This document shows, in pieces, positions 9,052-26,679 of a stretch of 64,000 bases of DNA. The stretch is from positions 1 through 64,000 of the forward strand of contig JAQTUQ010000003.1 of the NCBI GenBank assembly GCA_028707255.1. The letters are read 5' to 3'. The stretch's first letter is position 1. Every line of letters begins with the position of its first letter. A program made the position numbers and the translations under genes. Source of the stretch: Dehalococcoidales bacterium (lineage in GTDB: Bacteria; Chloroflexota; Dehalococcoidia; Dehalococcoidales; UBA5627). Under the pieces are notes generated by a model that searched no databases, had not been told where the DNA came from, and saw only the letters and a list, made by a program, of their open reading frames with translations.

Positions 9052-9623
9052 TATTTTATAAATTAAACGTATGCGACACTTATTAGTAGCATAGAAGCAT
9101 AAGATTTCTATTTATGATGTAGGTAATAAATTATAATGTGGGGTAGCAATTGCAATATGAAGCATTAGTACATTATTTTAGCTTCGAAAAGCAGAATAAC
9201 CGGCTACTAGAAAACGCTATAATAAAGTATAAATTAATCATTCATTACTTTAGTAATACCTTTTATCCTGACGATTATTCTTATAGTCTCCACCGGCAGA
9301 TGGCAAATAGCCGAATTTCAGCCATTCTTTACAAGTTTCAATTCGAAGACCGAAAACAAACTGCCATTTCAGAGCTGAGATTTAATAATTCCGCAACATC
9401 CGCACTGCCACAGGCTATTATATCTTGTTGATATTCGCACTATATTAGAAGTGCATTTATAACTTAATTGACGAAAAAATGAACCAGCCAATGGAAGCTG
9501 ACGGGGAATGTGCATGTACACAGATAGCGGCAGTATTTGATGGACGGGCAGATGTCAAGGGAGTTGTCATGCAGGTTATAAGTGCAAAGTTAAATCGGGT
9601 GAAAACAAGGAGGATATAGCACA

Positions 9624-21532: not shown

Positions 21533-22363
21533 TTACTCTTCGGGGTTGTTGGAGAACAGCTCGCAGGGCAGGAATCGCGGCTTGTTCCATATATCGTCGA
21601 GCTCTGTTTTATGGCCGGCGCTGTCGCTTGCCCGGATTATATGATAGACGGGTGGATTTGAAAATTGTGCCGGCTGCAGGTCGTCTACATGCCGGTATCC
21701 CAATTCCTTCAGTCTTTTTTTAAACAGTTCTATCAATTCCTTTCCGGCCTGACCGTGGTCGATTTTATTTTCGAGCCTGTCCTGCCTGATGCTTCGCCAA
21801 TCTGTATTGCCGTAAAGCCGGTCGATAGACGATTCGCAGTCATACCTGGTCAGATTTCTCAATATGGCCATTTCCAGCGGAAAGAATATTAACAGGTCTG
21901 TTTTATGGCCTTTCCAGTCAGTTCCGTGGGAAGCCAGCTTTTTAATTGTTGTCCAGCGCAGTTTCGTATAACCGGCAGGATCGACAAGCACAAGCGAAGA
22001 CTTCGAGCGCGGTATGCAATCAAAGGCCTGCCTCAATATATTATCGTTGATACAATTACCGGTAATAATACGGCTCCTGTCTTTAAATTCAACTGTCGCT
22101 TCACCGAGTAATGCGGCTTCTTCCGGATTGTTCACTATAAAGATACATTTACGAAATTTGCTTTTCAGGGCGGATATTTCGCTGCCTTCGATATTGCAAT
22201 TATCCGTTTTGCAGGGAAAAAAAGAGCTGCCGGCAAAGATATCCAGATAAAAACGGTCCCTGTTTCTATCTGTGTATAACTTAATATACTCAGCGAAGCA
22301 CTGCAGCTTGTGGCAGAGCCATTTGGGGGGTTGCCGGAAAGTCTGTTTCAGCTCTTCATTCAT
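21533..22363 (-). CDS. Three-Cys-motif partner protein TcmP-like
   Basis: WLCHKLQCFAEYIKLYTDRNRDRFYLDIFAGSSFF; GSEISAL; SLVLVDPAGYTKLRWTTIKKLA. Confidence 0.68.
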   Translation of the reverse strand: MNEELKQTFRQPPKWLCHKLQCFAEYIKLYTDRNRDRFYLDIFAGSSFFPCKTDNCNIEGSEISALKSKFRKCIFIVNNPEEAALLGEATVEFKDRSRIITGNCINDNILRQAFDCIPRSKSSLVLVDPAGYTKLRWTTIKKLASHGTDWKGHKTDLLIFFPLEMAILRNLTRYDCESSIDRLYGNTDWRSIRQDRLENKIDHGQAGKELIELFKKRLKELGYRHVDDLQPAQFSNPPVYHIIRASDSAGHKTELDDIWNKPRFLPCELFSNNPEE

Positions 22364-24177: not shown

Positions 24178-24257
24178 TCGGATTATAACATTCGAATCGA
24201 GAGGTTGGCAAAGGCGGTTTTCGCTAAAAGAGTTTATTTTTGTTCTTTGCCTTTTAA

Positions 24258-24294
24258 TAAGCTAAGCAACTGTCTTGTATAGTTGTTTAGCTTA
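24258..24294. terminator. 14-bp stem hairpin flanking the AT-rich island (taagctaagcaact / agttgtttagctta)
   Basis: Inverted repeat with one G-T mismatch, 9-nt loop, read directly. Confidence 0.4.
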
Positions 24295-24391
24295 ATACTA
24301 ACATTTTTAAAAACTGAGAGTTACTATTATTAATCGGAAGGTTGCTTTGCATATTGGAGATTATTCTAGCACTATGCATAGAAATAATATT

Positions 24392-25321
24392 TTAATAATC
24401 AATTAAGTACGAAAGTTGTCTTGTTTTATTACCATTCGTTTTTAACTCTTCTAAGAAATTAGCAAATAAACTTTTTAATTTATGGTATTCTTTAGAACGT
24501 TTATCTAAAGGCATTTTATATGGAGTGCATATAATATCCCATGTTGGCGATTGATTTATACTTGGTCTAACTTTGTTGCGTTGAAAGTATCCTTGAAATT
24601 CGTTTTGGCTTGCTAATTCGATAACTTGTATTGCTATTGTGCGAATATGCTTTTTTTCTTGGGGTGAGCAAAAAGAATGCCAGATAGGTGCGCTATCTTT
24701 AAGCACTTCATCGACTGTGAAAAACGTTTTATTATTGAATATATATGTGATGACTTGAACAATAATCCTTTCTGCAATTTCCCAATCTTTTGAATTGATA
24801 TCAAATGGAATTAATTGGGTTGGAATAAGTGCTTGTGAAATATACATTTTAGGTGAAAAAGCATCATTTAGTTCAGGTATGCAAAAACTATTTAATTTTA
24901 ACTCCAGCCCGTCATCATCAACTAATAATACTGGAAAAGTGTATTGCCCTTGATTAATTCCAATTAAAATACGAGATTCGTTACTTGATAATCCTATTAT
25001 ACATATATCATGAAAATCAGTTACTGCTGATGAAAGAAATGCTTTAATGTCCATGGATGTTATTTCTGAGTATCGTTTTAATTGGTCATTATCTGTATTA
25101 TTGCCTTCTTTCCACTCAAACAGAATACTATGTTGTTGTATTATTGATGATATAATTAGCTCTGGTTTAACGACGTGCTTTTGCGAATTCGGAAAACCTA
25201 ATTCAATCCACTCTGGCTTATATCCCAAGTCTCTAATGATAGTAGGTAAGCCAGCTTCTGCTCTACACAGCCCAATCCAAAGGTTGAGCATTTGAAGATT
25301 AAAATTAGAAAATGCCATCAC
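24392..25321 (-). CDS. Hypothetical protein with PD-(D/E)XK nuclease-like signature
   Basis: PELIISSIIQQHSILFEWKEGNNTDNDQLKRY: P-E, about 14 residues, E-W-K, then QLKRY. GTG at 25321 or ATG at 25318 with a GAGGAGGGG ribosome-binding site. Confidence 0.6.
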   Translation of the reverse strand: MMAFSNFNLQMLNLWIGLCRAEAGLPTIIRDLGYKPEWIELGFPNSQKHVVKPELIISSIIQQHSILFEWKEGNNTDNDQLKRYSEITSMDIKAFLSSAVTDFHDICIIGLSSNESRILIGINQGQYTFPVLLVDDDGLELKLNSFCIPELNDAFSPKMYISQALIPTQLIPFDINSKDWEIAERIIVQVITYIFNNKTFFTVDEVLKDSAPIWHSFCSPQEKKHIRTIAIQVIELASQNEFQGYFQRNKVRPSINQSPTWDIICTPYKMPLDKRSKEYHKLKSLFANFLEELKTNGNKTRQLSYLIDY

Positions 25322-26462
25322 TCCCCTCCTCTTTAAAAGTAATTTGAGAATTGAAGTGGTGTTTAAGGTTTGTATATAAGCGTACTACGGTATTACCACA
25401 TGAGGAATATGGAAGATAAACACGCATAAATTCTGGAGTGATTTCAAAATCTATTCTACAATTAACATGGAGGTCAATAGCCGTTACTCGATAAACATAT
25501 TCTCCTAACTTTATAGGACATCCCCAGAGACGGAATGGTAGTGAGGCAGAAAAAAGTCTATTACAAAATCTGTCCAAGTTATCAATTGGTTTAGGAAAAT
25601 AAAAATTTAAAGCTTTTCCACCTATATTAACATTTTCATTAATGCTGTTAACTTTTATAGAATAGTTCTGCTCTATATTGTGTATTGTTGATATGTATTC
25701 GGTATAAGTATTTGAAATAAGAGACAAATGACTCATAAAAGATGTTCCGCGGGCAGTGACTTTACCATCATATTTGAAATCATCAATTGTAAAATCATTT
25801 GACTCCTGAGAAGATAACCAATGTTTAATCTTTACTTTTGATAATGTAGTAGAAAAGGGAAACTGTTCATTGAGGATGTTATATACATCTTTTGCAGCAG
25901 TTCCCCATAGTTGCATTTTAAGATATTCAACGGAATTTGTTAATTCAGAATTTTCATCTACAATAGGTCGGTAGTCATAATCTAAACCGAGACCTTTAAA
26001 TACTCCTTTTTTACTTAATCTATATAAAATTTCTGGCCAAAACCAAGTACGGTCAATATGTTGATGTTCTTTTATTAGGCGGTCAATAAACCAATCAAGG
26101 CTGATACTCATATTGGTTGAATGAAGAATCCAGAATCTAGGATTGCTAGCATCAAGAAATATTTTTATTGCTTCTTTATTATAGAATGCAGTCAATTGGA
26201 ATAAGGTGGGGTCATCATAACTTGATTCTATTTTTAAGTTATGTTTTTGACGTAAATAACCTTGTGAAATGCTGTATAAAAATTCTTGTAGAGTTTCATA
26301 TGATGCATTCTCATTAAGATGAGCTTCTAACAAATAAGTTTTAATTAGTGATGTATCAGGTTCAAGTTCTTGTGTTTCATAAAGCTGAGAATATGTTTTA
26401 TTCATCCTGTCATCAAGGTAATAAATCATCTCTTGTCGAGTTAAACTGCTATCTTTGAGCAT
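25305..26462 (-). CDS. Hypothetical protein, overlapping the PD-(D/E)XK-like gene
   Basis: 385-aa ORF, 17-bp overlap with the downstream ORF, same AT-rich composition. No family recognised. Confidence 0.6.
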   Translation of the reverse strand: MLKDSSLTRQEMIYYLDDRMNKTYSQLYETQELEPDTSLIKTYLLEAHLNENASYETLQEFLYSISQGYLRQKHNLKIESSYDDPTLFQLTAFYNKEAIKIFLDASNPRFWILHSTNMSISLDWFIDRLIKEHQHIDRTWFWPEILYRLSKKGVFKGLGLDYDYRPIVDENSELTNSVEYLKMQLWGTAAKDVYNILNEQFPFSTTLSKVKIKHWLSSQESNDFTIDDFKYDGKVTARGTSFMSHLSLISNTYTEYISTIHNIEQNYSIKVNSINENVNIGGKALNFYFPKPIDNLDRFCNRLFSASLPFRLWGCPIKLGEYVYRVTAIDLHVNCRIDFEITPEFMRVYLPYSSCGNTVVRLYTNLKHHFNSQITFKEEGSDGIF

Positions 26463-26679
26463 TTATTATTTACCTTATACTGAATAGTAAAGTATTTTAA
26501 AGGAATATTAATACTCTATTAATTCAAAGTCAATATTTATTTAGTATATTTATAATAATTTAAAAATCAATTTTCTTTTCATGCATTTTTTAACCTATAT
26601 TTTTATATAAGCATGAAAATGTGGACATCGTGAGTTTATCGAATATGGCAATTAATATCGGATTAATTCAAACGTCTAG

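Follow-up and report, generated by a model that had tools for sequence, protein, structure and literature searches.

The question raised by this locus is what two overlapping genes of deviant base composition are doing among the housekeeping genes of a Dehalococcoidales bacterium. The stretch of DNA analysed, 64,000 nucleotides in length and referred to as the window from this point on, carries both genes on the minus strand between pth and a SLOG gene, which precedes eno. Gene A (25305..26462), which leads the pair, encodes a protein of 385 aa, whereas gene B (24392..25318) encodes 308 aa when read from its ATG, or 309 aa if GTG 25321 is used. A sequence-only reading of this DNA had taken the two for a compact, translationally coupled and compositionally foreign pair, a nuclease plus a partner, of the kind expected from an uncharacterised defence or nucleic-acid-processing module.

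Insertion site and base composition

Both overlapping reading frames of that account are present, on the same strand, and intact. Its 17-bp overlap, on the other hand, stands only if B is counted from GTG 25321; from ATG 25318, the overlap is 14 bp. The latter is probably the better start, and 14 bp the true overlap, because an AGGAGG Shine-Dalgarno sequence (25325..25330, minus strand) lies within the 3' end of A, 6 nt ahead of this ATG. The deviant composition was borne out. The pair has 31.7% G+C, compared with 50.4% in eno, 50.9% in SLOG, 45.9% in pth, 49.4% in ligA and 44.4% in the window overall, and its GC3 is 0.23 against 0.52-0.57 in neighbouring genes. The most AT-rich stretches of this length anywhere in the window begin at 24251-24751.

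The inserted segment spans 24213..26679, from the pth stop codon to the SLOG-eno promoter (TTGCCA at 24211, TATAAT to 24182), which adjoins it; the left edge is approximate. In three congeners (G001, G002 and G004), pth and SLOG are adjacent, with a spacing of only 36-44 bp that represents the empty site, and in the first two the TTGCCA...TATAAT promoter is clearly present in the gap. Such a comparison of synteny in relatives without the island had been proposed with the sequence-only reading. A fourth congener, G003, has a different insert of 832 bp at the same junction, with a 129-aa open reading frame. In a fifth, G005, the contig ends at the junction, and a two-piece AAA_13 ATPase (best E 2e-15) is encoded on the contig bearing the SLOG side; ATPases of the AAA_13 type are frequent among defence genes. 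The pth|SLOG junction (window 24213-26679; L060, L064 and L065) is an insertion hot spot of the genus. The pair itself is absent from 60 relatives of the order. This absence, together with the empty sites, rules out a universally conserved core gene pair at this locus, the reading that had been set against a foreign module from the outset.

A TcmP-type gene (21533-22363, minus strand; TIGR04474, E 9e-26; PADLOC PDC-M41A) directly follows eno and has a native GC3 of 0.54. No three-Cys-motif partner was recognised next to it.

Relatives and linkage of the pair

A tblastn search with A returned plasmids of Lysinibacillus, Metabacillus, Methanocaldococcus jannaschii and Halobacterium, four loci drawn from a plasmid-only collection, and no match among phage records. 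An alignment-based scan, built on four sequences, returned 16 genomic loci and one prophage contig, with members in Armatimonadota, WOR-3, Zixibacteria, Methanoperedens, Thaumarchaeota, Altiarchaeales, Halanaerobacter, Acidobacteria, Nitrospira, Anaerolineales and Bacillota. Whole-genome searches with A showed how thinly the family is spread, with matches in one of 61 genomes in the order, two of 301 in the phylum and four of 349 Bacillales, and in 17 of 345 genomes of the Methanoperedens phylum, partial matches included.

Wherever A occurs in full length among the first-collected loci, B follows it directly (22 of 22, with B of L015 counted from a re-set start at 9148), usually with an overlap of 1-62 bp. 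The same holds for all five further full-length A genes found by whole-genome searches with A alone, each of which has an adjoining B. In the Chloroflexota genome G221, A is split by an insert and B is still adjacent. For clades I and II taken together, 28 of 28 A loci (one split) adjoin B, across more than ten phyla of bacteria and archaea. Ten further, divergent archaeal loci constitute clade III, in which A has about 346 aa and the adjoining B-like gene reads PD...ELT. Trees of A and of B recover the same two deep clades and have most subgroups in common. The Chloroflexota copy L026 falls in the opposite clade from the window copy, which speaks for horizontal transfer. Between close pairs, dN/dS is 0.08-0.17 for A and 0.12-0.27 for B, reflecting purifying selection on both, and A is the more conserved of the two. 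A-B is therefore an inseparable, horizontally moving and sporadic pair in the order A-B, and the coupled, foreign pair described from the sequence alone (overlap 14-17 bp) proves to be obligately linked in its relatives.

Several loci depart from this pattern. Two copies are decaying: in L013 7529-9917, the split A of G221 is interrupted by a transposase-bearing insert, and in L094 5106-8962 (G971, clade III) an insertion element interrupts B and leaves A intact. For a Methanoperedens genome (L017/L067), the whole-genome search reports one TGA within the frame matched to A. At L088 1327-3483, a very distant A-like protein (E 2e-6) is followed by a PD...EIK nuclease, and this locus may belong to an additional branch with the two-gene layout of A-B. 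Short haloarchaeal plasmid proteins of 139-166 aa (L007 7923-8342 and L008 7884-8384) were rejected as members, as they comprise the A C-terminal domain alone, with neither the GNT motif nor a B gene.

The two proteins

The sequence-only reading had pointed in B to PE, 14 residues, EWK and then QLKRY, and had suggested a restriction-endonuclease-like fold. These elements correspond to P52-E53 (25160..25165), E68-W-K70 (25109..25117) and the helix motif Q79-L-K-R-Y83 (25070..25084), all on the minus strand, and they are conserved over 21 relatives. The first acidic residue of PD-(D/E)XK is Asp or Glu in 21 of 21, the second is Glu or Asp in 21 of 21 and the Lys is present in 19; Gln79 is found in all 21 and Tyr83 in 18. 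To judge from this alignment, conservation of the motif is not due to chance. K70 is replaced by Thr in two members of clade I (WOR-3 and Zixibacteria) and in clade III. A lysine slightly further on may substitute for it in the Thr-bearing proteins, some of which may be altered.

Among the 21 B proteins, four match the Pfam model HSDR_N_2 (best 1.5e-5) and one matches PDDEXK_11; the window copies of A and B have no significant match to Pfam, NCBIfam, PADLOC or PDB sequences. The AlphaFold2 (AF2) model of B (pLDDT 87.2, pTM 0.82) has the order H6-19, E33-38, E54-58, E63-70, H77-84, E102-110, H111-122 and E130-134, that is, the canonical alpha-beta-beta-beta-alpha-beta core of PD-(D/E)XK proteins. 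In the modelled secondary structure, this core is followed by a helix-helix-strand region of winged-helix type (residues 178-262; 24533..24787, minus strand). Foldseek matches of B are weak (best E 0.019; range 0.02-0.5), and PD-(D/E)XK nucleases recur among them, including Can2, McrBC, HamA, SdaI, DrdV and XisH, along with Hjc-like proteins and winged-helix and wHTH domains. Because motif, Pfam-clan matches and predicted fold agree, B can be classed with good confidence as a PD-(D/E)XK protein and predicted nuclease, as first proposed. It shares with the HSDR_N branch of that superfamily the PD-x14-E-x-K core, the Q...Y helix, the beta/alpha order and the HSDR_N_2 matches noted above. It differs in its winged-helix-like C terminus, in low sequence identity, in the Lys-to-Thr replacement of some members and in belonging to a pair without helicase or methylase.

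Protein A had matched nothing recognisable, and it still belongs to no named family. In Pfam, no match of its 22 members reaches significance (best 0.021, each match in one member only), none of them matches any model of PADLOC 2.0 at E 0.01 (nor do any of the 21 B proteins), and the window copy has no match in NCBIfam. Fifteen residues are invariant across the 22 sequences. Eleven (K, E, R, D, W, G, D-x-H and C-x-N-x3-R) persist in the divergent archaeal clade III. D330-L-H332 (25467..25475, minus strand) is invariant in all 22 and in clade III. C355-G-N357-T-V-V-R361 (25380..25400, minus strand) stands at the N terminus of the last long helix, and its Cys, Asn and Arg are likewise invariant, with C-x-N-x3-R kept in clade III. 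We infer that these residues are more likely to line an active site or to bind a ligand than to form a surface for general DNA binding.

The model of A (pLDDT 86.4, pTM 0.87) is a duplicated alpha/beta protein. Its top high-probability PDB matches in Foldseek are yeast Iml3 (probability 1.00, E 4e-5) and human CENP-L (probability 0.99), both remote at TM 0.23-0.30; among the weak matches is RnlA, an RNase LS toxin fold. The DNA-binding proteins RexA, which acts in phage exclusion, RdgC and Iml3/Chl4 have been assigned to a common structural group (PMC11077077). Neither RexA nor RdgC appears in the top 50 matches of A, which makes the remote resemblance of the model to the RexA/RdgC/Iml3 scaffold a lead. 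Matches to 4qvu (E 0.022) and hemocyanin (E 0.058) were set aside as noise-level. A zinc site formed by H245, D330, H332 and C355 was rejected, as H245 is not retained in clade III, and so was a pyruvoyl enzyme, suggested by weak AdoMetDC-like matches, as no invariant Ser for self-cleavage was seen.

Neighbourhoods and function

Outside the window, the pair recurs near restriction-modification (R-M), Hma/HEC-01, HKD-SNF2 and defence reverse transcriptase loci, as well as on plasmids and in prophages, which bears on the question of co-occurrence with defence islands put by the sequence-only reading. For instance, Hma/HEC-01 proteins lie near L026, an HKD-Snf2 helicase and a IIG methylase near both L013 (Chloroflexota G221) and L093 (a genome of the Methanoperedens phylum), EcoRII R-M near L027 and a type I HsdR near L029. 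PDC-S28 is found near L003, an OLD/GajA-type ATPase and VapBC near L004, and RT-Protease_XI, a defence reverse transcriptase, near L089. In L028, genes matching the Mu-transposase C-terminal domain/TnsB, TniB and TnsD/TniQ stand upstream, a Tn7-like arrangement, and type I R-M stands downstream. Four copies are on plasmids, and two (L009 and L090) are in prophage lysogeny modules, where ImmA/IrrE-like and integrase genes were read by eye. Known defence or R-M genes lie within about 8 kb in about nine of the 25 clade I/II loci with useful flanks, and two more are in prophages; these are raw counts, taken without a matched background. The surroundings of the window copy and of L014-L016, L018, L020, L021 and L025 are housekeeping or unclassified genes, as are the ordinary chromosomal surroundings of the four clade III loci examined, one of which (L097) adjoins Mre11/Rad50-like genes. 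In L022 1402-8366, from a UBA9088 bacterium, sensor-kinase-like, EAL-like and cyclase-like genes precede the pair, and the cyclase-like gene ends where A begins.

In each of the eight Bacillota loci examined (L006, L009, L023, L024, L027, L028, L029 and L089), A is preceded by a PemK/MazF-like gene of about 235-245 aa with what looks like a coiled-coil tail. Its identity comes from Pfam in L009 and L028, from annotation in L006 and from similarity in the other five. It is possibly a third component.

Association with defence islands and mobile cargo, sporadic occurrence and horizontal movement, the features by which a defence class is recognised, are all found here, as counted without a background control. 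With a probability of about 0.6, A-B is an undescribed two-gene anti-invader nuclease module in which A senses and B cuts, a role in defence that we infer from the neighbourhoods. The earlier suggestion of a defence or nucleic-acid-processing module is supported, and the obligate linkage and the mobile and defence context go beyond it. In the mechanism proposed, A and B would be translated from one mRNA and form a complex. A would be a sensor or licensing subunit of Iml3/CENP-L (RdgC/RexA-like) type, its invariant polar pocket controlling B, and would recognise either invading DNA or an infection-linked ligand. B, as effector nuclease, would then cut the DNA of the invader, or that of the host to give abortive infection, and its winged-helix-like C-terminal domain should contact nucleic acid. 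As the pair encodes no ATPase or helicase, recognition should be ATP-independent.

The carriage of two seemingly co-translated genes by plasmids and mobile elements, the PemK/MazF-like gene in every Bacillota locus and the weak match of A to RnlA would also suit a toxin-antitoxin or addiction module, in which B is a toxic nuclease, A neutralises it and the pair is a selfish stabiliser of plasmids, prophages and islands. We consider this unlikely. A is larger than typical antitoxins, is ordered, bears some 15 invariant, catalytic-looking residues and is better conserved than B, the opposite of what is usual for antitoxins. The decaying copies weigh in the same direction: B is interrupted in L094 with A intact, and in L013 the split A accompanies an intact B, which argues against B as a free toxin, since loss of A alone should kill.

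A helper in DNA repair or recombination, with A as a DNA-binding ring or clamp like RdgC and Iml3 and B trimming or resolving a DNA intermediate, is slightly less probable again. It would draw on the DNA binding of the fold neighbours of A (Iml3 and CENP-L, with RdgC and RexA by way of the literature), on the PD-(D/E)XK and Hjc-like matches of B and on the position of L097. Against it stand the very sporadic distribution in the order, the phylum and the Bacillales, and a placement that favours defence islands and mobile elements over repair genes.

The neighbourhoods are compatible, too, with other mobile-element functions, and carrier-aiding nucleases are exemplified by XisH-XisI and homing nucleases. 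That B aids the excision, integration, transfer or exclusion of its own carrier is nevertheless very improbable, for while XisH is among its best weak structural matches, and copies are inserted at defined sites, next to Tn7-like genes and in prophages, the carriers are unrelated (plasmids, prophages, a Tn7-like neighbourhood and a stand-alone insert), the window island has no flanking recombinase and only imperfect repeats, and no search made here relates XisI-type partners to A.

A bolder form of the anti-invader reading, which we put forward tentatively and hold to be rather doubtful, makes A a new enzyme or ligand receptor. In this form, K41, E46, R109, D137, W140, E264, D330-x-H332 and C355-x-N357-x3-R361 would together make up a site, either catalytic or for a small molecule, that makes or senses an infection signal and activates B, and the pair would constitute a new, ATP-free, two-gene class of immunity common to bacteria and archaea.

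Neither A nor B falls in a known non-defence family, the outcome that the sequence-only reading had counted against itself. Compared with known two-part nuclease defences, the anti-invader module proposed here resembles Hachiman in logic and lambda RexAB in setting, and by the comparisons made it is a member of none of those tested. RexAB is also a two-gene module in prophage lysogeny regions, and its first protein may have a scaffold in common with A, with the reservation that RexA is outside the best 50 matches. RexB, however, is an ion channel, whereas B is a PD-(D/E)XK protein rather than a membrane channel partner of RexB type, and A has invariant pocket residues. In the published account of Hachiman, the effector nuclease HamA is held by a DNA-sensing partner, the HamB helicase (PMC10925250). 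To that extent the nuclease-plus-sensor logic is the same, and B has a weak fold match to HamA, whereas A is no helicase and has no recognised nucleotide-hydrolysis motif, and no PADLOC Hachiman model matches the pair. Auxiliary PD-(D/E)XK nucleases are known in BREX-related/Hma systems (PMC12839542). A-B is found inside or beside such loci (DUF499, DUF1156 and HKD-SNF2) in L026, L013 and L093, but mostly occurs without them, which indicates an independent cargo module, not a core component. In XisH-XisI, too, the gene of a small PD-(D/E)XK-like protein is accompanied by that of a partner; XisH has only 128-129 aa in the matched solved structures, and A could not be related to XisI. A literature search on the M. 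jannaschii locus names and accessions and on fold and defence terms returned no study of the pair; supplementary files lay outside that search, and an unnamed listing in them is possible.

If the anti-invader reading is true, a defence module common to two domains of life has so far gone unnamed, despite a copy on a plasmid of M. jannaschii (MJ_RS09135/09130). Its leading protein has no family name, no sequence relative of solved structure and many strictly invariant residues. How foreign DNA might be told from self without ATP would be a question directly testable in one small two-gene construct, and the possible fold link between A, RexA and Iml3 would join phage exclusion, bacterial recombination control and kinetochore proteins.
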